A stretch of 64,000 nucleotides of DNA from an uncultured Elusimicrobia bacterium (lineage in GTDB: Bacteria > Elusimicrobiota > Elusimicrobia > Elusimicrobiales > UBA9959). The position numbers and the translations under genes were made by a program. Location: contig CAIXBR010000005.1 in assembly GCA_903917735.1 (NCBI GenBank), forward strand, positions 1-64,000. Direction: 5' to 3'. This document shows, piece by piece, positions 5,318-41,662 of this stretch (the stretch's first letter is position 1; each line of letters begins with the position of its first letter). A model generated the notes under the pieces. That model saw nothing but the letters and a program-made list of their open reading frames with translations, did no database searches and was not told the DNA's origin.

Positions 5318-6137
5318 GGCAATCAAGAGGCTGTCCGCGCGCGGCGTGGAAGAACCCGAGCTTAACGCCCAGTGGCTGCTGGCTTCGGCCATGGGCGTGG
5401 AGCGCCTGCGCCTGCTGGCCGAACCGGACCTGCCCGTGCCTGCCGCCGCTCTGAAAAAATTCGAGGCCTATCTGAAGCTGAAGGAACAGGGCCTGCCGCT
5501 GGCTTATATACTGGGCTGGCAGGATTTCCGCGACATCAGGATAAAAGTGGACAAGCGCGTGCTGGTGCCCCGGCCGGAGACCGAGGAGCTGGCCGGGCTG
5601 GCCGCCGATTTCCTTAAGACGCGCAAAGGGGAGCTCTCGGCGCTGGATTACGGCGCCGGGTCGGGCGCCATCGGCCTGTGGCTGGCTAAAAAATTCCCCG
5701 CCCTCAAACTGACCGCCGCCGAACTCTCGGCCAAGGCCATAGCTTGCGCTAAGGAGAACGCGGCGGAACTTGGCCTGGCCGCCCGCGTGAAGTTTGTGCG
5801 GACCGGGGTGCTGGGGCCGGTGCGCGGCCCCTTCGATTTGATCGTTTCCAACCCGCCGTATATCCCCACCCGCGTGATACCGGGGCTGTCCCCGGAAGTG
5901 CTGAGCGAGCCGCACGTGGCGCTGGACGGCGGCGGTGACGGACTGGATGTAGCCCGGATGCTGGTGGATGTGGCGCCGCGCAAGCTTAAAAAAGGCGGTG
6001 CGCTGATACTGGAGCTGGGCGGGGCGCAGGCCGTTAAAATGCTGGCCGCCATGGCTCCCTCCATATGGGGGGAAAAGAAAACTTTTAAGGACCTCAACGG
6101 CATAGAAAGGTTCGTCTACGGGAGAATAAATGGATAA
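5292..6137 (+). CDS. prmC: Release factor glutamine methyltransferase PrmC
   Basis: 281 aa SAM-dependent methyltransferase that N5-methylates the GGQ glutamine of release factors. It shows the PrmC N-terminal helical domain, the family motif VPRPETEEL (about 92-100), motif I DYGAGSGAIGL (119-129) and the catalytic NPPY (187-190). ATG 5292 is preferred over the TTG at 5253, which would lengthen the overlap with prfA. With ATG 5292 the overlap is 26 nt, supporting coupled expression with its substrate. It overlaps murA by 8 nt at the other end. Confidence 0.95.
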
Positions 6138-7386
6138 TTTCATCATCCGCGGCGGCCGGCCCCTGAACGGACAGACCACAATAAGCGGCTCAAAGAACGC
6201 GGCCCTCCCTATCCTTGCCGCCACCCTGCTGACCCGCGAAAAGTGCGAGATAAAGAACGTCCCCGAGCTGATGGATATAAGGTCCACCTTCGAACTGCTC
6301 AACTATCTGGGCAAGAACTGCTTTTACGGCTATGGCAACTTCGTGGCCGAGGAACACGCCCAGCTGAAGCTGCACGCCCCTTACGACCTGGTGCGCAAGA
6401 TGCGCGCCTCCATGCTGGTGTCGGGCCCGCTGCTGGCCCGCTTCAAGAAAGTGCGGTTCTCGCTGCCCGGCGGCTGCTCCATCGGTATGCGCCCGATAGA
6501 CATACACCTGGAAGGATTCAAGAAGCTGGGCGCGCACGTCTCCTACGAGAAGGGCGACGTGATACTGTCCGCGAAAAAGCTTAAGGCCGGCCGTGTGAAG
6601 TTCCGCTTCCCCAGCGTGGGCGCCACCGAGAACCTGATGATGTGCGCCGCGCTGATAGAAGGCGTGACTACCCTTGAAAACTGCGCCAGAGAGCCTGAAA
6701 TAGAGGACCTGGCCGCCGCTCTGACCAAGATGGGCGCCCTGGTGGAGGGCGCCGGCACCCCGACGATAAAAATACACGGGGCGGCCTCGCTTAAAGGCCT
6801 GAAATATACCGTAATGCCGGACCGTATCGAGGCCGGGACCTTCATGCTGCTAGCCGCCGCCGTGGGGGGGAAGATAAAGCTGCTGAACGCCGCCCCGAAA
6901 AATCTGGACGCGCTGATACGCGCCATGAAGAAAGCCGGCGTTAAGATCACGTCCTATAAAGATTCCATAGAAGTCGAGGCTCCCCGGAGCCGGCCCAAGC
7001 CGGTGAACGTCGTAACCAGGCCGCATCCCGGTTTCCCCACCGACCTGCAGGCGCCCTGGATGGCCTTTATGGCGCGCGCCAACGGCGTAAGCGAAGTGCA
7101 GGAACATATTTTCGAGAACCGCTTCATGCATGCGCCCGAACTGGTGCGCATGGGCGCGGATATTACGGTGATGGACAAGAAGGCCGTGATCCGCGGCGTG
7201 GCGGAACTGCTGGGCGCCCCGGTGATGGCTTCCGATCTCAGGGCCGGAGCGGCCCTGGTGGTAGCCGCGGCGGCGGCCAAGGGTAAGACTGTGATACGCC
7301 GCATATACCATATAGACCGCGGCTACGAAAAGCTGGAACACAAACTGAAGGACCTGGGCGTGGACGCCTCGCGAGTAAAGGCGTAG
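6130..7386 (+). CDS. murA: UDP-N-acetylglucosamine 1-carboxyvinyltransferase
   Basis: 418 aa, normal MurA length. It transfers enolpyruvate from PEP to UDP-GlcNAc, the first committed step of peptidoglycan synthesis, in the cytoplasm. Visible motifs are SGSKNAALPILAA with catalytic Lys22, the active-site loop LPGGCSIGMRPIDIHLEG with the PEP/fosfomycin-target Cys116, and RMGADI near residue 340. The start overlaps prmC by 8 nt and a GGAG precedes it, so prfA-prmC-murA read as one operon. The Cys is retained, so fosfomycin sensitivity would be predicted. Confidence 0.96.
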   Translation: MDNFIIRGGRPLNGQTTISGSKNAALPILAATLLTREKCEIKNVPELMDIRSTFELLNYLGKNCFYGYGNFVAEEHAQLKLHAPYDLVRKMRASMLVSGPLLARFKKVRFSLPGGCSIGMRPIDIHLEGFKKLGAHVSYEKGDVILSAKKLKAGRVKFRFPSVGATENLMMCAALIEGVTTLENCAREPEIEDLAAALTKMGALVEGAGTPTIKIHGAASLKGLKYTVMPDRIEAGTFMLLAAAVGGKIKLLNAAPKNLDALIRAMKKAGVKITSYKDSIEVEAPRSRPKPVNVVTRPHPGFPTDLQAPWMAFMARANGVSEVQEHIFENRFMHAPELVRMGADITVMDKKAVIRGVAELLGAPVMASDLRAGAALVVAAAAAKGKTVIRRIYHIDRGYEKLEHKLKDLGVDASRVKA

Positions 7387-7450
7387 TGGGTTTGACTTTG
7401 ATCTTGAGAAATTATGTGGCTATACCGGTACAAAGCAGTGTGACCGGAGA

Positions 7451-7609
7451 AGCTTCTTGAACGGGCCAGATAATTCTTCGGATGTTTTTGATTACACGCA
7501 GACTGGAAGACCGATAGGCAGCGGGAAATTTGTAGGGAAGCTTGAACGGTAATTCGGGCGCAGGCTGCACGCGTTGGCGACAGGGTGGCCAAGGGGTAAA
7601 GAGAAATAA
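7451..7609 (+). pseudogene. Decayed C-terminal tail of a REP-associated (Y1/IS200-like) transposase
   Basis: One forward frame reads GRPIGSGKFVGKLER, then a TAA at 7550-7552, then FGRRLHALATGWPRGKEK and a stop at 7607-7609. The pattern TGRPxGSxxFxxKLExxxGRRL..GRPxGK is the typical C-terminus of Y1 transposases of the REP-associated group, recognised from family knowledge. The catalytic HUH part is missing and the frame is interrupted, so it is a remnant. It lies between murA and the inverted-repeat patch and supports past mobile-element activity here. The bases from 7610 to 7786 show no gene. Confidence 0.55.
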
Positions 7610-7786
7610 TAAATAGGTGTCCGTCCCCATTTGCCCATTTCGAGCATAAGGCGCAGTATTCCGCTTACTGTGATCCTGGTGGATAGCGGTGGACGTGGTG
7701 GTCCTGGATTTTAGGCTGTTCTTGACGATGAGTTGGGGAATCATGAAATGACTTTACACGACGGGGAAAAAGTGGAAATCCCCTTT

Positions 7787-7975
7787 GAAATCCACCGAAG
7801 CCCAGTTACCGGCTTGGTCAATTCCCCGAATCCACCACTTCCCTTCCGGCAGATTTCCGAGGGCGGGTAAATCCGAAGAATTATAATTATGGTCAATATT
7901 GTCGAAAAAATAATGCAGAAAAAAATTCGGAGTTCCGGCGGGGGTGGGTTCTTTGTCCCAGATTTCAAGGCGGCC
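7787..7975 (-). repeat. Inverted, diverged copy of part of the 1875-aa surface protein gene
   Basis: The reverse complement of this ~189-bp stretch matches 9885-10074 with roughly a dozen mismatches by eye. Read leftward it encodes a near copy of that protein segment (LEIWDKEPTPAGTPNFF, then NLPEGKWWIRGIDQAGNW). It then diverges and hits a stop (TAA at about 7753). It has no start codon of its own and is best seen as an orphan gene fragment in inverted orientation. Confidence 0.8.
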
Positions 7976-7998
7976 AACAGCACAGCATGGAGAGCAAT

Positions 7999-9057
7999 AT
8001 GAAAAAAATCCTTATTTTCAGCATAATTATTTCCTTTGCCACACTCTTGCATGCGCAAGGCGTGGCAAACAAGGTTGAGACCCCGGAAGTCCGGGAAACT
8101 ATAAATAAGATGCTGGCTGATGTTGAATCTGCCAAGAGCAAGCCTTTGCCCTTAAACCGCGCTATAAACACATTGAGTGACCAATTATTAAACAATTGGA
8201 ATACAAAGGTATATGTAAGTCCTGACACAACCCGTAATGTGACAAAGAAACTGATAGCAGTATTTAATGGAATTAACGATGAAGGGACAAATCAGGCAAA
8301 TAAATTGAGAATTATTGAAGCGATAGGCTTCTCAGATAATAGTCAAGAGGCGCACGATTTTTTTCTTTCCCTTATGGAGAAAGGAACGAAAAAGCAACAA
8401 GAAATGTTGTTGCGGTCATTAAGCCCTATTGGGGTACGGGGAGATGATATTTATCAAAAAGTTAAGGAATTGGTTATAAAAGGGACGCTGAAGGAAGAGA
8501 ATTCTTTTGCGGCGCTTCAACGTGTTGACGCGAAAAAAGCCTTGCCGGAAATTCAGAGGTTTCTTTCCACTACGAAAAACGTAGAGCATTTTGTAAAAAT
8601 TGGATTGGTTTTAAGCTATTACCAGGACCCTAATCTACTGGATGTCCTGGTTGAGCGCCAGAGTGAATTTAAAGTTGAACAACCCAAAACAATGCAGGAG
8701 GCAATGAATCGTATGGAGCCTGCTGACGCTATCGGCTCAAAAGATTTAAAGAAGTATATAGAGGTGCGAGAAGGAGGAAAAGTTAAGTCGGCTTTAGCTC
8801 TTTTGCGGAAAAAGGGTACGTCTGGGGATAAAGACTTATCCTTTTTTGAAAAAAGACTGTCTAGCAATGTAAGTGAAACGCGAGAGGCCTTATTGGATTT
8901 CATCCAAGATCAGGTTGATGATGGGAATTTTTCTGCGGACAAAGTGACGCCAGTTTTGAAGCGTGTAGAGCTAAATGAAAAAAACGGAAAAATAAAAACC
9001 CGTATTAAAAATCTGATTGACAAGGTCAATCAGCGGAAAGTTAAAGAGGGAAAATAA
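7999..9057 (+). CDS. Secreted helical (HEAT-like) protein of unknown function
   Basis: 352 aa with a cleavable Sec signal (MKKILIFSIIISFATLLHAQ). The rest is Lys/Glu-rich and apparently all-helical, with repeat-like blocks such as DPNLLDVLVERQ and KKALPEIQRFL that suggest HEAT/ARM-type solenoid repeats. ATG 7999 is preferred over ATG 7987 because GGAGAG (7989-7994) lies just before it. The gene is visibly AT-richer than its neighbours, a sign of transfer. Its TAA overlaps the next ATG by one base (TAATG), so it is translationally coupled to the large surface protein and may be its partner. Confidence 0.65.
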   Translation: MKKILIFSIIISFATLLHAQGVANKVETPEVRETINKMLADVESAKSKPLPLNRAINTLSDQLLNNWNTKVYVSPDTTRNVTKKLIAVFNGINDEGTNQANKLRIIEAIGFSDNSQEAHDFFLSLMEKGTKKQQEMLLRSLSPIGVRGDDIYQKVKELVIKGTLKEENSFAALQRVDAKKALPEIQRFLSTTKNVEHFVKIGLVLSYYQDPNLLDVLVERQSEFKVEQPKTMQEAMNRMEPADAIGSKDLKKYIEVREGGKVKSALALLRKKGTSGDKDLSFFEKRLSSNVSETREALLDFIQDQVDDGNFSADKVTPVLKRVELNEKNGKIKTRIKNLIDKVNQRKVKEGK

Positions 9058-12000
9058 TGCCTGCTAAAAAACTTTTTCAAGGCATGTTGGCTGTGCTCTT
9101 CTTGTCATGCGGGAATATCCCGTGTGCAAAAGCAGGCACCTATGGTGCCTTGGACCATCAAGAAAAAGCCGATGTGCTTTTTAGGAATTTAGCTGTTATC
9201 CCCAAGATTCCCGTTGAAGTGCACAGTGGAATATATGAGAAATATTTTACAGGCGACCCTGATAATCCCTTTAATCATTTGGTTTTTCAAATGACAGGTG
9301 TCGTGACGTCTAAGCTGTGCTTAGACGATCTATTTGGCTGTGTGGAAACTGTGCGCGGGATTGAACCTATATTGCTTTCGACATTTAAAACAGTGGAGTC
9401 TCCTTATTATGGCGCCTTTGCCCTTGCGAGTTCCCCAGGCAGGGCTGAAAGACAAGCTATTTTGGAAGAGGCGAAAAGATTAAGAGCCATGTCGATAGAT
9501 TATATTGTGATGCCTGATGAGGGTAAGTCAAATTTGCTTAATCACTATGTCCGTTATACTGACTTTAACAGTGATGGCATTATGCAAGAAGGGGAAATTA
9601 CTCGGATGCGTAGCGACGCTTTTGTTGAGTATTCCTATGCGGTTGCAGGGTTTCCTATCATGGATGTGGACATTACAAGTGCTGCCGGAATTTATACTCT
9701 TCAATTCCGTTCAGGTATGCAGCTACTCTTTCCTTCCGACCAGCAGGCGCGCATGGTTTCGGCCACGATTCAGAAGCCTGAACTCCATGTTTATGAGGAT
9801 GAGACGAATAAGGAACTCCTGAACGATGATTTTACGTCAAAGCAATCTTTTCATGTTTATGTAGAAGACCTCCTTTCCGGGCCCGGCCGCCTTGAAATCT
9901 GGGATAAAGAACCCTCCCCCGCCGGAACTCCGAATTCTTTTCTGCATTATTTTTTCGATAATATTGGCCATAATTATAATTCTGCGGATTTTTCTGCACT
10001 CGGAAATTTGCCGGAAGGGAAGTGGTGGATTCGGGCAATTGACCAAGCCGGTAACTGGGCTTCGGTGGATTTCACAATTAGCGATGACAAAACACCTCCT
10101 CAGATAACCGTTTACGATTACGGGAATAAATTTTCGGTGGTCGGTGATAGCCCTATTGAGGCGGCTCCGTGGCTGGTCGCGCTGTCTACCCCCGTATTCT
10201 CCTTTTCCGACTCCGGCAGCGGGCTGAGCTGGTACGCACTTTATGACGCCGACAGTGGCGAGATGCTCCGCTGGGAGTTCTTCGACGAAACCTCCTCCGC
10301 CACCGCGGAGATCTACCTGCCCAATGACAGGGCCGGTTACCAGCTTGTGGTGGCCGACAACGCCGATAACCAGAGCTCGATGTATTTCAGCGTGGATAGA
10401 CACGAGCCCAAAATCGAGTATTCCGACATAAAAATTAAACCATTCGGTGATTATTACAGTGCGGATGTGTCCGGAACGGCCACCGATCTTGCGGCAGGCA
10501 TAGGTGCCGGACCGGTGATGCTCGCAAATCCCCCTATGTATGGAGACTTGGGCGTGCACCCCACCGGGAACCCATACCCTCCCGGGCCGTTAACAAGCAC
10601 CTTCTCCTACACCAATCTGACCGGGAGCGGCTTTATGGACTATATGTTCCTTGCCGCCGACAAGGCCAACAACCTTGGCACTAACGAATTAGGACTGTCC
10701 AATAACAAGGACGCTGTAAAAATTAACACCACCTCCGGGTATACAGAGTACGTCAATGGGGAATGGGTAGTTCATAAGGGGCTGTTACACCTGGGTGGCG
10801 TCGTTTCCGGCAGGCAGATACTGCTGAATTCGCTCAGGCTCGACTATCCGGCATGGGGCGGCTGTATCGTTTCCGGAGACCATTCGGGAATGTCCGCGAC
10901 ACTGTCGGCGGGTGGCTATACCCCGACCGCCCAGGAGAATGTCAGCTCCGCCTGGGATAATGTTCCGGCAAATTTTAGTTTTCCATTTTCGACTCCGGAC
11001 CCCGTCACCGGTATTGAGTTGGGCGCAGTTCCGGTCAGCGCGTCGAATTGGGTGATGCCGCAGTACACCTACCTGCAGTTAACGGGAACCCCGAACACTA
11101 AAGAAATGTCACTTACCTGCACGACCAGTCAGGGAACTGTCACGTCCCCCATAGCTTCCGGGACATTGTATTATGAGGCAAGCGTGGATTCCACATTTAC
11201 GCTTATAGAAGCTCCGCGGGTAATCCGCCAGGAGTGGGTGACGCCGGACTTTAACGTTCTGGTGAAAGCGGGGCTGGTTGAAGTGGAAATAGACAAAATA
11301 ACCGTGCCCGGGAAGGTCACTGTTTCGCGCGCTAAGTATGACCCGAAGGTGCCCAACTTTAAACTTGCCGGAGACAAATACGTGTATGACGTCAACATCG
11401 GCGCAAAATACGAAGGCAACGTGCGGGTGACGTTCTATCTGAACGTGGCCGGGTTAAGCGCCCAGCAAAAAAATGGGATTGGCATATATCACAACGACGG
11501 TTCAGGCTGGAAAAACCAGACGGCCGAAGTGGGTGATGATCACATAACGTATGAGGGGGCGACCGCGTCGCCTTTTGTGGTGCTTGTGCCCATGAACGAT
11601 ACCCTACCGCCCCACACAAGCTTCTCTGCTATAGGCGCCGCTGCGGCAGTCAATAATCGGACATATATTTCCTCAACCACCCTGGTGGAGTTGGATGCGT
11701 CCGATACTGCGCTGACCCCCGACGACGTGTCCGGCCCCGCAACCACGTATTACTTGATAGACGCGGCTCCCGCCGCCGACTGTCCGGCCACGCCGTATAA
11801 CGCCGTGGCTGGGCGCGGTACGTGCGCGAATCCCGTCTATGCCGGCCATTTTGCGCTTTCAGAAGGCGTCCACGCGGTTTCATTCTGGAGCGTGGATAAT
11901 GCCGGCAACTCCGAGGCTGTGCAGTCCAAGACCTTATATGTGGACGGCACCGCACCGCAGGCCGCGCTTTTTGCGGACGGCGCGGTGGTCGAGAGCAGCA

Positions 12001-14684
12001 GCGCCGCCTACATAACCGACGCGGACTCTATAACCATCACCGCCATAGACCAGGAATCCAACGGTGTGATTTCTAACGTGAAGGATGTTTATCGCTTCGT
12101 GGACGTCAATCCTGTTTCCTGCGGACAGCTGCGGGCGGTAGTGTCCACCGCCCCGGTGGGAAGCTGCCAGAATTACCTGTACAAAGGGCCGTTCAGGCTG
12201 ACTGTCGGCACCCATACGGTTTATTACAGTGCTATAGATAACGCCGGCAACCTGGCCACAGGGAAGAGCGCACAAATATCAGTTATTGGTTCCGTGAACA
12301 GCTCAAATCTGGTGGACGGTACGCCGGAGATCCGGTTCGTCACGCCCATAGCCAATGCCAGTATAACCCCCGTGACTTTGGGTTCCGCGCAGGGAATGGC
12401 CGCTTTGGCGGCAGCTAATTCACAGAACCTGTTGCGGGTTAGCGGCCTATATAAGCTTGGCCCCGACGGAAACTATCCATCATACAGCAGCGTAACGTTC
12501 TCGTATTCAACCGCGACATTGCTGGCCGGTGTTCCGGAATCCGAGCTGGCTATTTACGCGCGTTCCGCTTCGGAAGAGTGGATTAAACTTTTCAGCCAGA
12601 CGGCAGATGCGGCAAACCATATAATAACCGGGCCTGTAGCAAGTTTGGCGTCTTCCCTGTTCGCCGTTTTAGGCCCTAAACCCGCAGTGGCACCAGTGGC
12701 CTCGGCCTTCAGCGGCGTGACCGAGACCGGTATTACCGCGCGCTGGGCTTCCAACGGCAATCCCTCCGACGCCGGATATGTTGCGCATATTTCCACCGAC
12801 AGCGGCTTCGGCTTGGTTCTCTTAAGTTCAGAGACCGCTAACCTATCGGCGCAGTTCGGCGCCGGCGGCGTTGGCGCAGACCTGGTTGCCAATACCACTT
12901 ATTATTTCCGGGTAAAATCCGTAGGCCACTTTAATTCCAGCAGCTTTGTTGTGCTGGGCAGCACCTGGACGCTGGCTTTCCCGCCGTCCGGCACGGCCAC
13001 TTCCGGCATCTGGACAACAAGCGCGGCTGTAAGCTGGGAGTTAAACGGCAACCCGGAGGGCACTATGGGCGAAGTTCAGCGCTCCACCGACAATAGTTCC
13101 TACGCCCGTGTGTTCCTGGGCTCGGCGGTTTCGGTGACCGATGCGAATTTGAAAGCCTGTACTACCTATTACTACAAAGTGCGAAACCGGAACTGGGCCG
13201 GGATATATTCCGGTTATGATTCGGACACGCACTTTTCCACGATGGGCTCCACCCCGTCCACAGCCGGCGATTTCACCGCCGAATCCCTGAGCGGGGACAG
13301 AATAGGCCTGTCCTGGGGTTTCTCGCCTTCGGAAGGGGTTACGCAGTATCTGCTGTATTCTGACGCAGGCACGGGGACCATAGACTACGACTACCCGCTG
13401 GTTGTATTCGGTTCCACCGTTACAAGCTGGATTACTGGAGCTTTGGCCCCCGCCACCTCTTATAAGTTTGGCCTGCGGACCAAGAACCGCTGCGGCATAG
13501 AAGAGCCCAATACTTCCGTCTTCGCTTCGGCTACGGCTTTAAGCAGCCTTACCGGCGTGCGCGCGGCCATAAAAGTGCCCCAGACCGGCAAACACATACA
13601 AGGCAACAGCATTACGGTGGTAGCTGAACTGCTCCTGGGCGAGGCCCCCCAGACCAAGCAAGTGCTTTTCCAGTACCGCCTCCTGGGCACCACGACTTGG
13701 ACCGATATCACGGCGGTGAACACCAACCATCCCAACCCGGCCCTGGATTCGCCCTACCTAGTGCATTGGAATGTTATGGCTTTCACCCCCGGTGTGTATG
13801 AATTGCGCGCGGTAGCCACCGACACAAACAACACCATCGACGCCGCCCCGCCCACCATCACGGTAGTGGTGGACCCCATGGATTTTGACATCGACGAAAA
13901 CTCTACCGGCGGCAAGGTAGAGAAAGACCAGAAGTTGGACAATGCTGTCACTAACACCGTGCAGGCAGCGGACGAGGGTTCATCTCTTTTGATCAAGCTG
14001 GTTATTCCGGCGGGAGCACTGGACACCTCCACGGTGACCGTGACGGTGCTTAACGCCCCGGCGGTAAGGCCTTCGGCTCCTCAAGGCGCCGAGGACCTGG
14101 GCGTGATCGCGCGGATAACCCTGTCCAACAGCCAAAGCCAGCTTTCCGGTGGACAAACAGCTACGCTTACGCTGAATTACAGAGATGACGACGATAACGG
14201 GATAGTGGACGGCACCTCCGTAAAGGCCGATTCGCTGAAGATGTATGCCTCCGCCACTTCAGCAGGCCCCTGGGTACTGCTACCGTCGGTCGTGGATAAA
14301 GTGAAGAAGACCGTGACCGGGACCACCCCGCATTTCAGCTTCTTCGGCGTCTTCGCGGCCGCGGCGTACGACCTTAGCGCGGTAAGGGTCTATCCCAATC
14401 CGTACAAACCCAACGGCGGCAATTCTGACGAGGGCGTTCCCTACAGTGCCGGCAACCCTAATTCCGGGATAATCTTCTATAACCTGACCGACCGGGTCAC
14501 GATAAAAATATATACGCTGACCGGCCAACTTGTGGCAAAGGTCTCGTCCGACAGCAGCGGCGGGAAGATACAATGGGACGCCAAGAACGACAGTGGGCGC
14601 AAGGTGGCTTCCGGAGGCTATGTGGCCGTCATCACAAGCCCTGGGAATTCCGACACGGTCAGGAAGATTCTGATAGTACGGTGA
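9057..14684 (+). CDS. 1875-aa secreted multidomain surface protein with FlgD/type IX-like C-terminal domain
   Basis: A Sec signal covers residues 1-27. An EF-hand-like calcium loop DFNSDGIMQEGE sits at 169-180. Beta-rich Ig-like modules follow (AVDNAGNS-type repeats around 950-1080), then about three fibronectin-III-like domains (roughly 1205-1500). A second Asp-rich loop DDDDNGIVDG lies near 1711. The C-terminal domain from ~1772 has VRVYPNPYKPNGGN, then WDAKNDSGRKVASGGY and ends KILIVR, as in FlgD-like Ig or type IX sorting domains. It is likely exported to the cell surface and acts in adhesion or matrix. The first ~275 codons are AT-richer than the rest. A PorV-like barrel gene follows after 5 nt. 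Confidence 0.8.
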   Translation: MPAKKLFQGMLAVLFLSCGNIPCAKAGTYGALDHQEKADVLFRNLAVIPKIPVEVHSGIYEKYFTGDPDNPFNHLVFQMTGVVTSKLCLDDLFGCVETVRGIEPILLSTFKTVESPYYGAFALASSPGRAERQAILEEAKRLRAMSIDYIVMPDEGKSNLLNHYVRYTDFNSDGIMQEGEITRMRSDAFVEYSYAVAGFPIMDVDITSAAGIYTLQFRSGMQLLFPSDQQARMVSATIQKPELHVYEDETNKELLNDDFTSKQSFHVYVEDLLSGPGRLEIWDKEPSPAGTPNSFLHYFFDNIGHNYNSADFSALGNLPEGKWWIRAIDQAGNWASVDFTISDDKTPPQITVYDYGNKFSVVGDSPIEAAPWLVALSTPVFSFSDSGSGLSWYALYDADSGEMLRWEFFDETSSATAEIYLPNDRAGYQLVVADNADNQSSMYFSVDRHEPKIEYSDIKIKPFGDYYSADVSGTATDLAAGIGAGPVMLANPPMYGDLGVHPTGNPYPPGPLTSTFSYTNLTGSGFMDYMFLAADKANNLGTNELGLSNNKDAVKINTTSGYTEYVNGEWVVHKGLLHLGGVVSGRQILLNSLRLDYPAWGGCIVSGDHSGMSATLSAGGYTPTAQENVSSAWDNVPANFSFPFSTPDPVTGIELGAVPVSASNWVMPQYTYLQLTGTPNTKEMSLTCTTSQGTVTSPIASGTLYYEASVDSTFTLIEAPRVIRQEWVTPDFNVLVKAGLVEVEIDKITVPGKVTVSRAKYDPKVPNFKLAGDKYVYDVNIGAKYEGNVRVTFYLNVAGLSAQQKNGIGIYHNDGSGWKNQTAEVGDDHITYEGATASPFVVLVPMNDTLPPHTSFSAIGAAAAVNNRTYISSTTLVELDASDTALTPDDVSGPATTYYLIDAAPAADCPATPYNAVAGRGTCANPVYAGHFALSEGVHAVSFWSVDNAGNSEAVQSKTLYVDGTAPQAALFADGAVVESSSAAYITDADSITITAIDQESNGVISNVKDVYRFVDVNPVSCGQLRAVVSTAPVGSCQNYLYKGPFRLTVGTHTVYYSAIDNAGNLATGKSAQISVIGSVNSSNLVDGTPEIRFVTPIANASITPVTLGSAQGMAALAAANSQNLLRVSGLYKLGPDGNYPSYSSVTFSYSTATLLAGVPESELAIYARSASEEWIKLFSQTADAANHIITGPVASLASSLFAVLGPKPAVAPVASAFSGVTETGITARWASNGNPSDAGYVAHISTDSGFGLVLLSSETANLSAQFGAGGVGADLVANTTYYFRVKSVGHFNSSSFVVLGSTWTLAFPPSGTATSGIWTTSAAVSWELNGNPEGTMGEVQRSTDNSSYARVFLGSAVSVTDANLKACTTYYYKVRNRNWAGIYSGYDSDTHFSTMGSTPSTAGDFTAESLSGDRIGLSWGFSPSEGVTQYLLYSDAGTGTIDYDYPLVVFGSTVTSWITGALAPATSYKFGLRTKNRCGIEEPNTSVFASATALSSLTGVRAAIKVPQTGKHIQGNSITVVAELLLGEAPQTKQVLFQYRLLGTTTWTDITAVNTNHPNPALDSPYLVHWNVMAFTPGVYELRAVATDTNNTIDAAPPTITVVVDPMDFDIDENSTGGKVEKDQKLDNAVTNTVQAADEGSSLLIKLVIPAGALDTSTVTVTVLNAPAVRPSAPQGAEDLGVIARITLSNSQSQLSGGQTATLTLNYRDDDDNGIVDGTSVKADSLKMYASATSAGPWVLLPSVVDKVKKTVTGTTPHFSFFGVFAAAAYDLSAVRVYPNPYKPNGGNSDEGVPYSAGNPNSGIIFYNLTDRVTIKIYTLTGQLVAKVSSDSSGGKIQWDAKNDSGRKVASGGYVAVITSPGNSDTVRKILIVR
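9885..10074 (+). repeat. Forward partner of the 190-bp inverted repeat
   Basis: This segment lies inside the 1875-aa surface protein gene (codons about 277-339). It is the sense copy of the inverted fragment at 7787-7975. It falls where base composition changes from AT-richer (left) to the GC-rich norm (right). The bases between the two copies (7976-9884) hold the HEAT-like gene and the 5' end of the surface protein gene. Confidence 0.8.
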
Positions 14685-14689
14685 ACTTT

Positions 14690-15610
14690 ATGAAACATCT
14701 TAAATTTGCCGGCATACTGATAGCGGGAATTTGCTGGTCTGGCCCCTGCGCCGTGGCTTCTTCAGCCGGGTACGAACCGTTCAATTTCCTGTTCCTGGAT
14801 AGCAGTGTTAGGGCTGTGGGAATGGGCGGGGCCTATACCGCGCTGGCAACTGACGCCAGTGCCCTGTCTTATAATCCAGCAGGCCTGGGGCGGATAGGCA
14901 ACCGTGAAGCCAGTTTCATGCACAACCAGTATTTCGAAAGCATAACACAGGAGTACCTAGGCTTTGCCGATCCGCGCGGTTGGGGGGCGAGCCTCAACTA
15001 TTTAAATTTCGGGGACGTGCCTAAGACTACTATCTCTAACCCCGCCGGTACCGGCCTGGGCAGCGCTGGTATGAAGGATATGGCCGTCAGCGCCGGCTAT
15101 GGACATGCCATAAGCGATTCCCTAAGCGTTGGCGTGGGCGGGAAGCTTATCAAGGAATCGATTGATAATGTCTCGGTTAACGCATTTGCCGCTGACCTGG
15201 GCGTGCTTTTCAACATGCCGGGCATGTCGAAACTGACCTTGGGTTTTGCGGTGCAAAACCTGGGGCCTGCTATTAAATTCCAGAGCGCCGAAGAAAATCT
15301 GCCGCTGAACCTGCGCGCTGGTGCGGGGTACGGATTCACGCTCCTCGGGAGGAAAAGCACCGCGGCTTTGGATATCACAAAAGAACGCAGAGAGAGCGCG
15401 CTTTTAAACCTGGGCGTGGAGGTCCTTGTCGCCAAGACAGTGCCGGTGCGCCTGGGCTTTAACACCCGCAATGACGCGGGTTCGGGTATTTCGGCCGGCC
15501 TGGGCTGGATACACAAAAACTTTAATTTTGATTACGCTATAGTGTCTTTCGGCGACCTGGGGATTACCCACCGCATCAGCCTTACCTGTATGTGGGGCAG
15601 GGGGGATTGA
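14690..15610 (+). CDS. PorV/PorQ-family outer-membrane beta-barrel protein (first copy)
   Basis: 306 aa with a signal peptide (to about residue 23). The N-terminal block SSVRAVGMGGAYTALATDAS followed by YNPAGLGRI is the hallmark of the PorV/PorQ (UPF0164, FadL-like) family. Amphipathic strands and the C-terminal DYAIVSFGDLGITHRISL fit a barrel. In Bacteroidota, PorV is the shuttle that takes cargo C-terminal domains from the type IX translocon to the attachment complex. The ATG is 5 nt after the surface-protein stop, so the two are co-transcribed. The second copy at 41663 sits in the same arrangement. Confidence 0.8.
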   Translation: MKHLKFAGILIAGICWSGPCAVASSAGYEPFNFLFLDSSVRAVGMGGAYTALATDASALSYNPAGLGRIGNREASFMHNQYFESITQEYLGFADPRGWGASLNYLNFGDVPKTTISNPAGTGLGSAGMKDMAVSAGYGHAISDSLSVGVGGKLIKESIDNVSVNAFAADLGVLFNMPGMSKLTLGFAVQNLGPAIKFQSAEENLPLNLRAGAGYGFTLLGRKSTAALDITKERRESALLNLGVEVLVAKTVPVRLGFNTRNDAGSGISAGLGWIHKNFNFDYAIVSFGDLGITHRISLTCMWGRGD

Positions 15611-15674
15611 GTTGACCTGCGGCCCGATAGATAAGGCATAATTTAAAAATGGTGGGAATGAGTAAAGATTACTG

Positions 15675-16970
15675 ATGATGACTTTTGAAGAAGCCAAGGC
15701 AAAACTGACAGGCAGGCAGGACTTCGTTAAGAAGGACGGGCTGGCCCGCGTGTACGCGTGCCTGGAGAAGATCGGGAACCCGCACCAGCGCCTGAAGACC
15801 ATCCATGTGACCGGCACCAACGGCAAAGGCTCGGTCTGCGCCCTGTTCGAGTCCTCCCTGCGCGCGGCCGGGCTTAAGACCGGGCTGTTCATCTCGCCGC
15901 ACCTGGTCAGCATGACCGAGCGGATACAGCTGAACGGCAAGGCTATCGGCCCGGAGGCCTTCACGGCTTTGTTCGAAGAGGTTTTCACCGCCGGGCCCGA
16001 CCTGAGTTTCTTCGAGCTGCTCACCTGCATGGCTTTCCTGTACTTCGTGCGGGAGAAAACGGACCTGGCGGTGATAGAGGTAGGCATAGGCGGGCGTTGG
16101 GACACCACCAATGTGCTGTTGAAGCCCGAGCTGAGCGTGATAACCTCGGTGGATTATGACCACAAAAAATATTTAGGGGCTACCCTGGCGGAGATTGCGG
16201 CGCAGAAGGCCGGCATAATAAAGCAGGACGGTATAGCTATAGCTCCCATACTGCCGCCGGAGGCCGGGACCGAGATCTCAAAAGAAGCCGCGGCAAAGAA
16301 CGCGCAATGCCATTTTTTCGCGCCGATCTTCGAGATAATCTCGTATGACTGGGAAAAGAACAGCATGACGCTGCGCCACAAGAAGAACGGCGAAATTATT
16401 AATTTCGGCATAATAGGCGAGATGCAGGTCTCCAACGCCACGCTGGTCTGGGAAGGACTTGAGATACTCGCAGGCCTGGGCTGGCCGGTGAACAGGGCTC
16501 ACGCCGCGGCGGGGTTCGCAGCGGTGCGCTGGCCGGCCAGATTTCAGGCCGTGCGCGGCGGGCCTTCCTTCGGCAACGCGCTTTTTATAATAGACGGCGC
16601 GCATAACGAGGAAGCGGCGCGGGCTTTCGCCAGCACCTGGGCGGTTTCTCCTTTCGCAGGCCGCCCGGGAGCTTTTGTAGTGGCTATGCTGCAGGATAAG
16701 GAGCGGCGCGCCATCCTTGAAACGCTTTCAAAGCTTTCCGGCAGGTTCGTCTTTACCAGGCCGGACTCTTCCCGGGCGGCGGATCCCTGCGCGCTGGCGG
16801 ACGAGATGGCGGCCATAAAGCCGGATGCGGAAGTAGAGGTGCAGGAAGATATAAGGGCCGCGCTGAGCGCGGCGGCCCGGAGCGGCACAGCCGCGGTGCT
16901 GGGGTCTTTCTACCTGGCAGGCGCGGCGCTGGAAATACTCGGTAAGCAAGTTGCGGAGTCAGGAGCCTAG
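15675..16970 (+). CDS. folC: Bifunctional folylpolyglutamate / dihydrofolate synthase
   Basis: 431 aa Mur-ligase-fold enzyme that adds glutamate to dihydropteroate or folates using ATP. The P-loop HVTGTNGKGSVCALFE is near residues 36-51, followed by FISPHLVSMTERIQLNG. VIEVGIGGRWDTTNVL is at ~135-150 and IDGAHNEEAARAF near 300 matches the C-terminal domain. Length is typical. Start ATG 15675 or 15678 cannot be separated (ATGATG). It follows the PorV gene after 64 nt without a visible terminator. Confidence 0.93.
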   Translation: MMTFEEAKAKLTGRQDFVKKDGLARVYACLEKIGNPHQRLKTIHVTGTNGKGSVCALFESSLRAAGLKTGLFISPHLVSMTERIQLNGKAIGPEAFTALFEEVFTAGPDLSFFELLTCMAFLYFVREKTDLAVIEVGIGGRWDTTNVLLKPELSVITSVDYDHKKYLGATLAEIAAQKAGIIKQDGIAIAPILPPEAGTEISKEAAAKNAQCHFFAPIFEIISYDWEKNSMTLRHKKNGEIINFGIIGEMQVSNATLVWEGLEILAGLGWPVNRAHAAAGFAAVRWPARFQAVRGGPSFGNALFIIDGAHNEEAARAFASTWAVSPFAGRPGAFVVAMLQDKERRAILETLSKLSGRFVFTRPDSSRAADPCALADEMAAIKPDAEVEVQEDIRAALSAAARSGTAAVLGSFYLAGAALEILGKQVAESGA

Positions 16971-17039
16971 GGTCAGGAGTCCGGGAGTCAGTATTACCGA
17001 CCCTGGGCCCGCGATCCCCGACTTCCCCTGGAGGACATT

Positions 17040-17990
17040 ATGCTTGGAATAGGTATCGACATCGGCGGCACTAACACAAAACTCGTGGTGGTAAACCGCG
17101 CCGGAAAACTTATGGCGCAGGACAGGTTCCGCACCGAGCCGGACAAGGGGCCGGCCTTTTTCATAAAGCGCCTGGCCGCCGGTGTGGATGCGTTCAAGCG
17201 CGATTACGGCCGGCAGCTGGTGTCCATAGGCATAGGCGCCGCGGGCGACGTGGACCCGGAAAAGGGGCTGCTGCGCTTCGCACCTAATCTGTTCTGGCAC
17301 AACATTAAAATAACCGGGCCGCTCGAAAAACTGACCGGTCTCCCCTGCGCTATGGAGAACGACGCCAATATGGCGGCCTGGGGCGCCTATGAACTTGAAA
17401 TGCGGCGCCGCAGCCCCAATATACTTACTTTAACCCTTGGGACCGGGATAGGTTCGGGGCTGATATTGGACGGAAAGCTATACCACGGGGCCACCGGCTC
17501 GGCCGGTGAAGCGGGCCATTTGAAAATAGTGCCGGACGGACGTCCCTGCCATTGCGGCGGGCGCGGCTGCCTGGAAGCTTACTGCGGCAGCTACGCTATA
17601 ATGGCGCGGGCCAAGGAACTTATAAAGGACGAAGCCGCCTTTACAAAGAAGTTCGCGGCTCCCGGCCATGTAAAATTCAATACCATCTGCCTGACGAACG
17701 CGGCCGAGGCGGGGCACGCCGTAGCGCGCAAGGTGTGGGCGGAGACCGGGCATTACCTCGGCACGGGGCTGGCCGGGCTTATACTGCTGCTGAACCCGGA
17801 CTGTGTGGTGCTGACCGGCGGGGTTTCCAGGGCCATTAAATGGTTCATGCCCGCCATGGAAAAAGTGCTGCACACGCAGCAGATAAAGACGCCTTTTACG
17901 CGGGTCAAGATCAAGGTGTCTGACGACGCGGACCTGGGTTCGCACGGAGCGGCCCTGTTCGGCCTGGAGAGGGCTTTGAAGCAAGGCTGA
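17040..17990 (+). CDS. ROK-family sugar kinase (probable glucokinase)
   Basis: 316 aa cytoplasmic kinase. It begins with the phosphate loop GIGIDIGGTNTKLVVV. It has the ROK zinc site: GHLKIVPDGRPCHCGGRGCLE (written in two parts, GHLKIVPDG and CHCGGRGCLEAYCG), with one His and the Cys triplet. MENDANMAAWGAYE supplies the catalytic Asp region. ROK members include glucokinases, N-acetylglucosamine and mannose kinases; the sugar cannot be fixed from sequence alone. A clean GGAGG lies 6-7 nt before ATG 17040. The short spacer before it contains GTCAGGAG-type microrepeats. Confidence 0.85.
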   Translation: MLGIGIDIGGTNTKLVVVNRAGKLMAQDRFRTEPDKGPAFFIKRLAAGVDAFKRDYGRQLVSIGIGAAGDVDPEKGLLRFAPNLFWHNIKITGPLEKLTGLPCAMENDANMAAWGAYELEMRRRSPNILTLTLGTGIGSGLILDGKLYHGATGSAGEAGHLKIVPDGRPCHCGGRGCLEAYCGSYAIMARAKELIKDEAAFTKKFAAPGHVKFNTICLTNAAEAGHAVARKVWAETGHYLGTGLAGLILLLNPDCVVLTGGVSRAIKWFMPAMEKVLHTQQIKTPFTRVKIKVSDDADLGSHGAALFGLERALKQG

Positions 17991-18025
17991 AGGGACATGA
18001 AGAAGCGACAGACCGGCTGGAATTG

Positions 18026-20189: not shown

Positions 20190-21158
20190 ATGGATGAAAA
20201 CATGAAAAAACCGCTTTGGCTTGTTACCGGGGGGGCCGGGTTCATAGGCTCCAATATAGTGGAGGAACTCCTGCGGCGCAAATGCCGCGTGAGGGTGTTC
20301 GACAATTTTTCCGCCGGCAAGAAAGAGAACCTGGCGCCTTTCGCCGGTAAATTAGAGCTGGTCAAGGGCGACCTGAGAGAGCCTAGGGACCTGGTGAAGG
20401 CCATGAAGGGCGTGACCTACGTGCTGCATCAGGCCGCCTTCCGCTCGGTGCCGAAGTCCGTGGACAATCCGCGCGCCGCCAACGACAACAACGCTACCGG
20501 CACGCTCAACGCCCTGATGGCGGCCAAAGCCGCCGGGGTGAAGCGCTTCGTCTACGCCGCCACCAGCTCCGCCTACGGCGAGTGCAATATTTTCCCGCAG
20601 AAGGAGACCCTCCCCACCGGGCCCATTTCGCCTTACGCCGTCAGCAAGCTGGCCGCCGAGAACTACTGCCATGTCTACGCCAGAACTTACGGGCTTGAAA
20701 CCGTGGCGCTGCGCTATTTCAACGTTTTCGGCCCCCGCCAGAACCCGGAGTCGGTCTATTCCGCCGTGATCCCGCGCTTCATGGAACTTTTCCTGGAGCA
20801 TAAGCCGCTGGAGATCCACTGGGACGGCCGCCAGTCCCGCGACTTCACTTACGTAGCCAACGTGGTGGACGGGAATATCCGCGCCGCGCTGGCTCCCAGC
20901 CGCGTTTCCGGCCTGACCATCAACGTGGCCACCGGCACGAATATTTCCCTGCTGGACATCGCCCGCGAGCTGGAAAAGATAACCGGCCGGAAGACCGAGA
21001 AGCTTTTCTCCCCGAAGCGCAAGGGCGACATCCGCAAGACCTACGCGGATATCTCGCGGGCCAGGCGGGAGCTGGGCTACAAGCCGCTGGTCAACTTCCC
21101 CGACGGCCTTAGGCTTACGTGGGATTATTTTTCTTCCGGATTCGGAGGCAATAAATGA
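20190..21158 (+). CDS. Extended SDR nucleotide-sugar epimerase/dehydratase (UDP-GlcNAc 4-epimerase-like)
   Basis: 322 aa. The Rossmann glycine motif is VTGGAGFIGSNIVEELL near residue 12. The catalytic Tyr-Lys pair is in SPYAVSKLAAENYC, with an upstream ATSSAYGE serine motif. FNVFGPRQNPESVYSAVIPRF and SRDFTYVANVVDG are typical of WbpP/GalE-type epimerases acting on UDP-hexosamines or UDP-glucose. A role in LPS or surface polysaccharide precursor synthesis is inferred from family and from the neighbouring lptD. ATG 20190 and ATG 20202 are both possible; neither has a clear ribosome binding site. The stop overlaps tdk by 4 nt (ATGA). Confidence 0.82.
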   Translation: MDENMKKPLWLVTGGAGFIGSNIVEELLRRKCRVRVFDNFSAGKKENLAPFAGKLELVKGDLREPRDLVKAMKGVTYVLHQAAFRSVPKSVDNPRAANDNNATGTLNALMAAKAAGVKRFVYAATSSAYGECNIFPQKETLPTGPISPYAVSKLAAENYCHVYARTYGLETVALRYFNVFGPRQNPESVYSAVIPRFMELFLEHKPLEIHWDGRQSRDFTYVANVVDGNIRAALAPSRVSGLTINVATGTNISLLDIARELEKITGRKTEKLFSPKRKGDIRKTYADISRARRELGYKPLVNFPDGLRLTWDYFSSGFGGNK

Positions 21159-21718
21159 TATTCAACGTCTCTTCCTCTTCGGGCTGGATAGAGGTGGTCT
21201 GCGGCAGCATGTTCTCCGGCAAGACGCAGGAACTGATACGCCGCCTGAAACTGGCCAATATCGCCAAGCAGAAGGTGCAGGTTTTCAACTCCCACCTGGA
21301 TACGCGTTATTCAAAAGAGCACCTGGTCTCTCACGACAAGTCCACGCTGGCGGCCAAGCCGGTAAAGACAGCCAGGGAAATACTTAAGGAAGTCAGCCCC
21401 GACACCCAGGTGGTCGGCATAGACGAAGCTCATTTTTTCGGAGGAGAAATAGTGGAGGTCGCGCAGAAGCTGGCCAATTCCGGCCGCCGGGTGATAGTGG
21501 CCGGTTTGGACCAGGATTACCGCGGTGAGGCTTTCGACAACATGGCCAAGCTGATGGCCGTGGCCGAGTTCGTCACCAAGAACCTGGCCATCTGCATGGT
21601 CTGCGGCAACCCCGCGCATTTCAGCCAGCGACTCACCGATTCGGGCCGCCGCATAATGGTGGGGGCGGGGGATAAGTACGAAGCCCGCTGCCGCAAGTGT
21701 TTCCAGCCGGAGAAATGA
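21155..21718 (+). CDS. tdk: Thymidine kinase (TK1 type)
   Basis: 187 aa salvage enzyme that phosphorylates thymidine. The P-loop is GSMFSGKTQELIRRLK, the Walker B-like DEAHFF near residue 91 carries the catalytic Glu region, and the lasso/zinc cysteines occur as CMVCGNPA and CRKC near the C-terminus. Length is typical of TK1-type enzymes. The ATG overlaps the epimerase stop (ATGA), so it is translationally coupled to it. Confidence 0.95.
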   Translation: MIFNVSSSSGWIEVVCGSMFSGKTQELIRRLKLANIAKQKVQVFNSHLDTRYSKEHLVSHDKSTLAAKPVKTAREILKEVSPDTQVVGIDEAHFFGGEIVEVAQKLANSGRRVIVAGLDQDYRGEAFDNMAKLMAVAEFVTKNLAICMVCGNPAHFSQRLTDSGRRIMVGAGDKYEARCRKCFQPEK

Positions 21719-21734
21719 GCGTTCCTCTATAACC

Positions 21735-22235
21735 ATGTACAGATCTGAAAAATTCAACCCTACGCTTTTCGGGAAACTCTTCCATCTCGGCGCCAAACTG
21801 TCGGATACCAACCGCTGGCTGAAACTGGCCGAAGCGCTGCCCTGGGAAAAGCTGGACGAAGGCTACGGCAGGTATTTCTCAGCCGGCTACGGCCGTCCCG
21901 CGAAGGACTCCAGGCTTGTCTGCGGCCTGCTGATGGTCAAGCAGCTCAAGAATATTTCCGACGACGACGCCGTGGCCGAGTTCATGGAGAACCCGTACGT
22001 GCAGGCTTTCTGCGGGCAGGAATATTTCGCCCTGGAGGATGTGATCAACCCCGGCATACTTTCCGAGCGCCGCCGCCGCCTTGGGCCCGAATTCCTGGCC
22101 CTGCTGGATGCGGAGCTTTCGACCGCGCTGAAAGCCGACAAGGAACTGAAGTTCCGCACGGGCCGCCCGGCCGCCGCCGAAGACAGCCTCTTCGCCGCCC
22201 TGCTCGCCAGGGTCCGGGGCTTGTTCGGCAACTGA
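21735..22235 (+). CDS. IS5/IS1182-type transposase N-terminal domain protein lacking the DDE domain
   Basis: 166 aa. Residues ~20-125 match the DUF772 N-terminal domain of IS5-group transposases: SAGYGRPAKDSRLVCGLLMVKQL followed (separately) by NISDDDAVAEFMENPYVQAFCG and a late LSERRRRLG. The downstream RNase-H/DDE catalytic domain is absent. The protein ends after a short Ala-rich tail and a terminator. The frame is intact and base usage matches the host, so it may be an old fragment retained as a DNA-binding protein, or simply a truncated insertion. No ribosome binding site is obvious and I see no IS ends around it. Confidence 0.6.
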   Translation: MYRSEKFNPTLFGKLFHLGAKLSDTNRWLKLAEALPWEKLDEGYGRYFSAGYGRPAKDSRLVCGLLMVKQLKNISDDDAVAEFMENPYVQAFCGQEYFALEDVINPGILSERRRRLGPEFLALLDAELSTALKADKELKFRTGRPAAAEDSLFAALLARVRGLFGN

Positions 22236-29973: not shown

Positions 29974-30075
29974 GCGGATAGTCGCAATGCGGATTCGGTT
30001 GCGGAAGATGCCGGATTTTTAGTCGCGTGGTCTTAGACTATAGACTGTGGCGTGGTCGTTCTTTTAGGAGAACTT

Positions 30076-33000
30076 ATGTTTAACATAAAAAAAATGATTT
30101 TAAACCTGGCCTGCATGGCTGCCCTGGCCGCGCCAGCGGCCGCGGCTTCACCCGGGTTCACCGGGAACTTCTCCCAGTCCGCTGGCTCGGTTTTTGACGG
30201 CGGGGACTATGACCGGACGTCGGCCATCGCCATAGACACCTGGACCGCGGGCGGACCGTTCGTCTATGTGGTCGGCGGCAGTTCCGATAACGCGGCCGGC
30301 ACGGAATACGGCTTGATAGTAAAATACGGTTCCGACGGGGTCATGCTGGCTTCCGATACGTATAGAAACGTGAAGAGCATGTTCCGCTCTGTCCAGTTCG
30401 ACGCCGCGGGCGACTTGGCGGTATCCGGGAATGTGGATTCCGCCTTTCTTGTAGTCAAGTACAATAAGGCCCTCTCCAGGCTTAATTCTACTTCCATTTC
30501 CGGCGGCGGGGACGGGTGGGCTCTCGCTTCCGACTCGCAGTCGAATCTGTATCTCGCCGGCAGCGGTGTGGGCGGTTCCGGCTGGTTCATGAAGAAGCTG
30601 AATTCGTCCCTGGCAGGAACGGCCTCCGCGGATTTCCCCAGCGGCTTTGCGTCGGGCGTGGGCGTTATGCCGGACGGCAGCGTAGTTTTTGTCGGCAACC
30701 TGGATACGGGTTCCAGCAGGGATTGGCATTTCCGCCGCTATGATCAGTCGCTGAGCACTCTTCTCTCCTCGGCTACCTACAGCGTCTCTAACTCTACCGG
30801 CGGCGGCAGTTATCCTTTTACCGCTTTTGACGGGAACGGGAATATTTATGTCGGCGGCCATAAAGATGTGGCCGGCACACAGTATGCCCATCTGGCCAAG
30901 TTCAGTTCTGCTTTTGCTCTTCTGGATTCCACCACTTCGGCTACCGCCAATTCAGTGTTTGCCCGGCCCGCTCTTAATCCCGCGGCTGACAGACTGATAG
31001 TGGGGTCTTTTACCGACCAGAAAAGGCTCATGGCGTTCGATCCCTCCAACCTCCACAGGGGAGCGTCTCTCCCGTCGTCTTATCTGGGCATCAGCGCGGC
31101 TGCGGATAACGGCGGTTACGTATATGTCGCCGGCGATTCTCCGTCCGTGACGGACGAAAAGGACCCCGCCAACGATTTCCACACGGTCCGTTATTTAATT
31201 CCTTCGCTGCCTGTAGTGGGCGCGGGCTTCACCGGCAATTTCACGCAGACCTCCGGCGCTAATTTCGACGGCGGGGATATGGATATGGGCACAGGGGCCG
31301 CGTTCTATAACTCCAATGTTTATGTAGCAGGCGGGGCTCTGCCCAACGGCGGCATCATTATCAGATATAACGGGGCCGGAACGGTCCTTTCCTCAGCCAC
31401 TCTCGGGGGCGTGGACGGCTTCATGCGCGTGGCCGCCAATGCCAACGGCATTTACGCCGTGGCCCAGGGTACTAACACCGGGTTTGTTACCGTTAAATAT
31501 ACGCCAAACCTGGTTTTTGTGTCTTCGGCGGTACTGGCCGGAGATTCCAGCGCCAGGGACCTGACCTTTGATCCGTCCGGCAACGTATACGTGGTCGGCT
31601 CCAACATGGGAGAGGGCGGAAATAACGATTACAAGATAGTCGAATACAACTCGAACCTCGCTCCTATGGGCTCTCCCAAATTGTTCGATGCCGGCGGCTA
31701 TGACGAAGGCAAAGGCATAGCCTACGATAGCGGCAATCTTTATGTGACTGGCGACAGCCTGATCGGGAACACCACTTATTTCGTCACCGCGAAATTCATG
31801 GCCTCTACGTCGCTGGTGTTCCAGTCTTCCGTTTCCTACACGGACACCTACGTCGAGCCTGATATGCCCATGGGCGAGAGGCTGGCCATAAGCACGACCA
31901 CGCATAACGTCTATCTCGTGGGTACGAACGGGACCGAGAACGGCCGGCACATATTGACGCTAAGATATTCACAGAACCTGCTGCTGTTGAGCTCGGCCGC
32001 CTTCGCCGGTTCCACTTACCAGTTGGGCGCCGACATTAAGGTGGACAAGGACGGCTACGTTTACACGCTCGGCAAAGACGGTTCGTCCGCCGACCACCCG
32101 GTGCTGGTCAAATACGATCCCAGCCTGAATTTCCTGTCCAACGCCACAAGCGTTCAGCCTAACAGCTACCTGCCGCTGGCCTTTGCGCTGGATCCCGCCA
32201 CCGGTGAAAGCTACGTGACGGGTTTTTATTCCACGGACGGGTCTAAGGACATGCCAAAGGCGGACATGCGCACTGTCAAGCTCCCTCCTCTCGGCAACGG
32301 CGTCCCCGGCAACCACTCCCCCGTGCTTGCTTGGGCGGGCGGCGGGGCTTACGAGAACGGAGGCCTTAATGTTGTGAACGGCACGGCAGGCAACACCTCT
32401 ATGTTCTTCGTTTACAAGGTTAAATACACGGACCCCGACAACGATCCCCCTGGCGCGGGCTACCCGAAACTGTATGTTACTAACGCGGGAATAGCCGCTG
32501 CCATGCAGGAACAGGATCCCGCCGATAAAAATTACAGCGCCGGCAAGATCTACACCTATGCCACGCAGCTCTCCCCCGGTGCCAATTACGGGTATTATTT
32601 CGTGGCGCAGGACTCGAACACCGCGCCCGCCACCGGTGTGCCTACGGATATTACTCCGGGCCCGGTCGTGGTCGACGCCCCGACGCTGAGCTATCAGTTG
32701 TCCAACCACTTTTCCGCCGGCATTAACGCCAATCTGGTCCTTGCGCCCGTTCCCGGTTCCAATAATCCGGCGCTCGCGAAGGACCTTGCCGGGAATGTTT
32801 ATACCGCGCAAACTTCCGTTTTTAACGCGGTTCCCATGCTGGTGCTGACCAAGTATAATTCCGCGGGCGGCGTACTGTGGACCAGATTCATTCCTTCCGG
32901 TATCCTTGTGGCCAAGGATATAGCGGCAGATGCCCTGGGCAACAGCTATGTGCTGAGCGCTATAGGCGGCGGTTCTTTATTCATAACCAAATACGACGCT

Positions 33001-41586: not shown

Positions 41587-41597
41587 GCGCCTGCGGC

Positions 41598-41618: not shown

Positions 41619-41662
41619 CGTTGGACTGCGGTTTTCAGGGACAGGGATCCAGAGGTAATTTT

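Follow-up and report, generated by a model that had tools for sequence, protein, structure and literature searches.

In the window examined here, a 64,000-nucleotide (nt) stretch of DNA from an uncultured Elusimicrobia bacterium, two long inverted repeats, hereafter the arms, flank an accessory gene together with the start of a gene for a giant surface protein, and each arm carries a 12-base-pair (bp) core at its outer end. This architecture is real and recurrent: complete pairs of arms were found in four other genomes of the same genus, one per species, giving five complete loci with that of the window. Because the layout recurs in these four genomes and the arms there end outward on a common 12-mer, the reading that we tentatively prefer, and to which we assign a nearly even chance, is that the locus may be a reversible ON/OFF DNA-inversion switch, which would cut the N terminus of the surface protein from its body. 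The preliminary description of this DNA had already proposed such a switch by recombination between the repeats, and the proposal stands as the best reading rather than as a demonstrated one.

Inverted arms and their shared core

The elements of the window locus are the following.

7641 to 7785, no strand assigned: left flank, conserved noncoding DNA directly outside the left core, with DNA matches of 73 to 79% over window positions 7641 to 7801
7788 to 7799, plus strand: left core, AAATCCACCGAA
7786 to 7975, minus strand: left arm, an antisense copy of surface-gene codons 277 to 339, open in that frame
7999 to 9057, plus strand: accessory gene, a secreted-looking open reading frame (ORF) of 352 amino acids (aa), whose ATG lies 23 nt past the left arm; the start may be at 7987
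9057 to 14684, plus strand: surface-protein gene, 1875 aa, with codons 1 to 339 within the inverted segment and the body outside
9885 to 10074, plus strand: right arm, coding, equal to codons 277 to 339 of the 1875-aa gene
10061 to 10072, minus strand: right core, TTCGGTGGATTT on the plus strand, within the SVDF codons

The two arms measure 190 nt each, are complementary at 178/190 bases (94%), and have 1909 nt between them. Thus, the 190-nt inverted repeat of the preliminary description is borne out, apart from a left coordinate that was off by one base, as is the view of the left repeat as an inverted, diverged copy of codons ~277 to 339. Within window positions 6001 to 18000, the longest exact inverted match is 38 nt; 100 first-order Markov shuffles gave 14.2 nt on average and never more than 20 nt. 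No third copy of the arm turned up in the 3.59-Mb, 132-contig assembly (93% complete), where the next DNA match had an E value of 1.2, and the two known copies were the sole matches of a protein search of the same assembly.

The interval between the copies had also been described as AT richer, and the base composition agrees with this. In particular, the G+C content (GC) is 38 to 47% in 400-base windows starting at 7800 to 9800 and about 52 to 66% farther out on both sides; inside the arms it is 41.8%, versus 60.0% in the 3 kb leftward and 56.6% in the remainder of the surface gene. However, the mosaic assembly of the N terminus that had been proposed for this interval was rejected. The armless locus L059 of genome G009 aligns with residues 15 to 412 of the window ORF (31% identity), straight through the junction at ORF residue 343 (protein residue 339), and L145 aligns likewise with the protein of G004 (VDFNIDTGGP versus VDFAIDTTGP in G004). 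Furthermore, an AT-rich upstream region and gene start (upstream GC of 40 to 48%) occur in L058, L059, L130, L134, L135, L137, L141, and L145, and no arms were found in these eight loci, L058 and L134 having short upstream DNA. It follows that the composition step is typical of this class of operon and does not mark a recent join.

Searches with the surface protein and the accessory gene covered the window's own genome (G000) plus 60 related genomes (G0xx stands for the other genomes compared and L0xx for fetched loci), the DNA search and the core scan covered 32 genomes of the genus, its own included, and a self-comparison scan covered 58 loci, partly overlapping, picked among the matches listed. 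Inverted repeats of 45 nt or more were present in 8/58 scanned loci, four of which have the present layout. Survey loci L062 and L138, whose repeats reach the contig end and have no core, were set aside, as were L110 and L113, with inverted repeats of 50 to 78 nt at 76 to 81%. The arms of the five complete loci compare as follows.

G000 (the window): 190 nt, 94% identical within the locus
G022: 248 nt, 100% identical within the locus
G012: 234 nt, 100% identical within the locus
G004: 173 nt, 95% identical within the locus
G030: 212 nt, 98% identical within the locus, added by the 58-locus scan

All share the order left flank, core, antisense arm, accessory gene, surface gene with a sense arm ending in the core, and body, with two accessory genes instead of one between the arms of G030. 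Measured between the outer ends of the two arms, the loci are 2.3 to 2.9 kb long, and the distance from the end of the left arm to the ATG of the accessory gene is 23, 30, 45, 44, and 61 nt in G000, G022, G012, G004, and G030, respectively. Partial loci were also recognized. In G010, an antisense fragment is followed directly by an accessory gene, and no right arm was found in that assembly. G021 has a single arm, cut by the contig end, of which no second copy was found in that genome; related stretches occur in G003.

The outer arm end is AAATCCACCGAA in four loci and the one-base variant AAATCCACCAAA in G030, so that each of the ten arms in the five loci has the core outermost; the core is also present at the single arms of G010, G021, and G003. 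Past the core, the inverted match continues for 2 bases in G000 and for about 6, with mismatches, in G030; the arm boundary at the core is sharp, not perfect. The core is rare, the exact 12-mer occurring 16 times in 11/32 genomes of the genus and the reversed-pattern control in 0/32. Eleven of the 16 occurrences fall in such loci, as pairs in G000, G012, G022, and G004 and singly in G010, G021, and G003; the remaining five lie in other sequence (G024, G007, G025, G028, and a second contig of G021). The variant core gave 14 matches in 9/32 genomes, among which, after inspection of the other 12 places, only the G030 pair belongs here. A scan allowing one mismatch was uninformative, with matches in 59/59 genomes of the family. 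Among 24 tested surface loci, picked from 46 surveyed for composition, 5 have both an inverted core pair and arms, and 19 have neither; the latter include L058, L134, L138, and L144, where less than 2.5 kb of upstream DNA means that a left arm could be missed.

The core encodes SVDF, or LVDF in G030. The three codons TCG, GTG, and GAT are identical in the four SVDF loci, despite accounting for 16%, 41%, and 42%, respectively, of the codons for their amino acids in 21 such genes. These shared wobble bases point to a constraint on the core DNA itself, although the product of the codon usages, about 6e-7, is only indicative because the loci may share ancestry or transfer. A short core is conserved between sites of different loci, as in a site-specific recombination site.

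In pairwise comparisons of the ten arms, loci match one another at an E value of ≤1e-3 only at the core end, over 33 nt at 88% between G000 and G012 and over 16 nt between G012 and G022, with all other matches weaker than 1e-3; exceptions among the partial loci are the G010 left arm, which is close to that of G000, and G003/G021 (87% over 54 nt). The similarity within a locus is therefore kept or renewed locally, which raises the question of how arms that are dissimilar between most species, the core apart, stay 94 to 100% matched within each locus. The dozen mismatches between the window arms had been taken to argue against frequent exchange, which is fair for G000 but does not extend to G022 and G012, with their fully identical arms.

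Predicted inversion and competing explanations

In the proposed mechanism, the arms would recombine, either at the core or elsewhere along their homology, and thereby turn round the segment from 7786 to 10074, which consists of the accessory gene and the first 339 surface codons flanked by arms with the core outermost. The order seen, with the N terminus fused to the rest of the protein, would be the ON state. After a flip, the N-terminal reading frame would cross the core and enter the left flank, meeting a stop 10 codons on, and the body would come to lie behind the left arm and lack a start codon, i.e., OFF. Given this early stop and the missing start, inversion in G000 would yield a short N-terminal product with the body silent.

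The reading frames were compared across seven loci. The antisense frame is open across the left arm in all of them (the arm of G021 being cut by the contig end), and the frame past the core stops after 10 codons in G000, G022, G004, and G021, after 6 in G030, after 13 in G010, and after 99 in G012. Upstream of the arm, the same frame is open for 3 to 25 codons, or 170 in G012. In G022, an in-frame ATG precedes the left arm, in the antisense of the accessory gene. Inverted repeats thus flank a segment whose predicted flipped frames would be a truncated N terminus and a body without a start, as expected of an inversion switch. Moreover, at a junction in G003, the N-terminal sense arm and the core are followed by 15 foreign codons and a stop, i.e., the expected product of an inversion. 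We infer that inversion takes place, as well as its driving force (a recombinase or general recombination), the position of the promoter, and the resulting phenotype.

Several observations weigh against the switch. Every one of the five complete loci has the ON order, an argument against even flipping, and the flipped order does not appear in the material compared, which consists of single assemblies, one per species. The junction in G003 is truncated and lacks a second core. By eye, no recombinase was recognized among the listed ORFs of the window, one list being limited to at least 260 aa; elsewhere in G000, three matches to the G021 tyrosine recombinase and four to the serine-recombinase family all lie on other contigs, in a search that left aside IS110/Piv-type enzymes. 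No ATG, GTG, or TTG precedes the left arm of G000 in the relevant frame, and since the flipped body would have no start codon, coding use does not explain the conservation of that arm between G000 and G010. Finally, at the 12 sites where the G000 arms differ, the G010 left arm agrees with the left arm of G000 at 11 and with its right arm at 1; therefore, the window arms have not been homogenized since the G000 and G010 cassettes parted. The same count indicates no recent conversion here, so that the earlier suggestion of a silent fragment for gene conversion, for which there is a single short copy, is weak.

The main rivals of the inversion switch are cassette exchange and a copying product. 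In the first, which we regard as somewhat unlikely, arm, accessory gene, N terminus, and arm would together form an exchangeable N-terminal cassette, moving between bodies or sites by means of its two inverted cores, and inversion would be incidental. This would account for G010, where a 435-nt stretch with the left arm and the 5' part of the accessory gene shares 92% identity with the window, from 2 bases outside the core, behind a left flank unrelated to that of the window, and for the differences in accessory genes and N termini among the five loci, where only the N termini of G000 and G012 align (26%). However, the collinearity of N terminus and body with armless relatives through the junction is contrary to such exchange, AT richness is not special to the armed loci, and the long arms would have no explanation.

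In the second, to which we assign a low probability, the left arm would be a product of repair or replication with no switching function: a break just inward of the left core would be healed by inward copying from the right core, repeatedly, by template switching on the 12-bp inverted match. That the arms start at the core and end just before the accessory start is consistent with this, as is the constant association of core and arms among the tested loci, with no half-decayed arms seen. Conservation of the core at both places and recurrence at one gene class are left unexplained, however, and the left arm is more conserved than the neighboring gene. In particular, G000 and G010 differ at 5/190 positions of the left arm and at 29 of the next 245 bases (Fisher P = 0.0003), and the first 74 codons of the accessory gene have a synonymous divergence (dS) of 0.50 and a nonsynonymous divergence (dN) of 0.065. 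Constraint on the left arm or its recent transfer would both fit this near absence of change.

It is also possible to hypothesize, with comparably little confidence, an undescribed element of one Elusimicrobiota genus, in which a 12-bp core upstream of adhesin operons matches the SVDF codons of the target gene and a dedicated process would re-copy the adjoining coding segment beside this core in inverted form. Each change of the N terminus would then be followed by a rebuilding of the switching arms, which would thus keep their match with a gene that evolves fast.

A functionless origin, in a single old inverted duplication or in an assembly error, would be compatible with the 6% divergence of the window arms and with the left-specific bases common to G010, but the same anatomy in five separate assemblies, two of them with 100% identical arms, and a left arm that changes far less than the silent sites of the accessory gene make it very unlikely. 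Slimmer still is the case for long-range RNA or antisense control, in which the left arm, as a leader, would pair with the right arm of the same messenger and limit expression of the body: the left arm does lie directly before the accessory start, in the leader if the promoter is outside, and is strongly conserved between G000 and G010, but 100% identity over 234 to 248 nt would be hard to keep by selection for pairing alone, and the fixed 12-bp outer end would be unexplained.

Flank, neighboring genes, and mobile elements

The left flank is common to G022, G004, and G021 (alignment of four, G000 included), with window positions 7641 to 7801 conserved each time next to an antisense surface-gene fragment; no counterpart was found in G010, G012, or G030. 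A promoter role for positions 7641 to 7785 is a guess on our part. No promoter was found when the left flanks of G000 and G022 were scanned for consensus sequences, and a single terminator-like site, on the minus strand, was found in the G022 left flank, where 0.4 are expected by chance. The stretch at window positions 7611 to 7632 has near-copies of ~22 nt in several genomes of the genus (G001, G006, and G012), frequently paired in inverted order within less than about 100 bases of each other; we take this to be a REP-like dispersed repeat.

Homologues of the accessory gene occur in 8/60 related genomes (E ≤ 0.001). The gene had been called HEAT-like, which Pfam does not confirm: no confident family was assigned to the window gene, whose sub-threshold match is to a different family. 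In G012, the accessory gene encodes a clear HEAT-repeat protein (HEAT_2, E = 9e-32). In G010 (L057:10151-10290), the gene is interrupted after about codon 74 of shared DNA, presumably by an insertion-sequence end, and the contig stops there, at about accessory codon 94.

For the surface protein, fn3 scored above the cutoff on sequence score, and FlgD_ig and Ig-like matches fell below theirs. The N-terminal domain at window positions 9057 to 10073 is the part that aligns, at 26% identity, with that of G012 (L103:7555-8433), which has a weak Peptidase_C92 match below the cutoff; by eye, RCDGLVEY of G012 corresponds to RSDAFVEY in the window, so that a possible catalytic Cys would be replaced by Ser. 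The next gene downstream is the following.

14690 to 15610, plus strand: PorV-like gene, 3' of the surface gene (start at 14573 in the ORF list), with PorV, UPF0164, and PorP_SprF above their cutoffs

The genes 3' of the surface gene in G022, G012, and G004 are DNA related to one another and, by eye, PorV-like. The ORF list of the window also includes, by eye, a second giant surface-type gene of 3844 aa (30052 to 41586) followed by a PorV-like gene (41621 to 42595); positions 30052 to 42595 are thus a second operon of the same general kind. A short ORF at 21735 to 22235, presumably a truncated transposase, adjoins one at 21155 to 21718 that we take to be thymidine-kinase-like.

In G021 (L075:13312-17699), two tyrosine-recombinase genes neighbor each other (15208 to 16239 and 16157 to 17236) between two related stretches, 14445 to 14675 and 17434 to 17699, which suggest a repeat, and next to them lies an ORF between 33-nt inverted repeats, presumably a REP-associated transposase. 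This tyrosine recombinase, which neighbors the G021 core site, was rejected as the engine because its close full-length homologues occur only in G002 (77%) and G006 (74%), both without the core. A transposon with long terminal inverted repeats was rejected as well, since inspection by eye showed no direct repeat beyond the cores in any of the five loci and no transposase was seen inside, and the collinearity with the armless relative also argues against insertion of a transposon. A diversity-generating retroelement was set aside since the differences between the window arms involve all bases and are not adenine specific.

Comparison with known inversion systems

Elusimicrobiota are a phylum known largely from metagenomes, and, should the switch work, members of it would use DNA inversion to switch giant surface proteins, along with their secreted partners, between ON and OFF. 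In the S-layer (sap) system of Campylobacter fetus, long conserved 5' coding repeats lie in inverted order, and inversion probably proceeds by general recombination; several full-length silent genes are present there, versus one short antisense arm here. A literature search, with most subscription journals outside it and judged by titles and the opening lines of abstracts, found no description of the present locus, which does not establish its absence from print.

Among the papers compared, the nearest published analogue is the UU172/mba element of Ureaplasma, where inversion is demonstrated at the DNA and protein levels (PMC3047005). As in our locus, a repeat lies in the 5' part of a surface gene and its inverse in a neighboring spacer, and inversion detaches the 5' part (PMC3047005). 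The likeness is one of layout only, inversion being demonstrated there and predicted from sequence here. Moreover, the Ureaplasma repeats are about 21 to 36 nt long, compared to 173 to 248 nt here, the flipped 5' end joins another gene (UU171/UU144), whereas here a stop would follow after 6 to 13 codons (99 in G012), and, unlike in UU172, an accessory gene is enclosed here (PMC3047005).

In the pneumococcal spnIII (hsdS) system, inverted repeats of 333, 85, and 15 bp with a common 10-bp core lie in coding DNA and are recombined by CreX, the longer ones also without CreX and without RecA (PMC6620402). The combination of long inverted repeats in coding DNA with a shared short core is found in our loci as well. 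However, spnIII exchanges specificity domains between expressed and silent genes, whereas here one short arm lies outside the gene, and, different from spnIII, no linked recombinase was recognized here (PMC6620402). Invertible segments near surface genes have also been mapped with reads in many gut bacteria; in the excerpts considered, these are largely promoter segments, whereas the segment described here, known from assemblies, holds one complete gene and the beginning of a second one (PMC11892184, PMC11868660).

By its anatomy, the locus would work like UU172 and spnIII, its membership in that class depending on proof of inversion and a known recombinase. Compared to both systems, its distinctive features are the phylum, the enclosed accessory gene, arms reaching the accessory start, and a single core shared by arms that have no DNA similarity between most loci.

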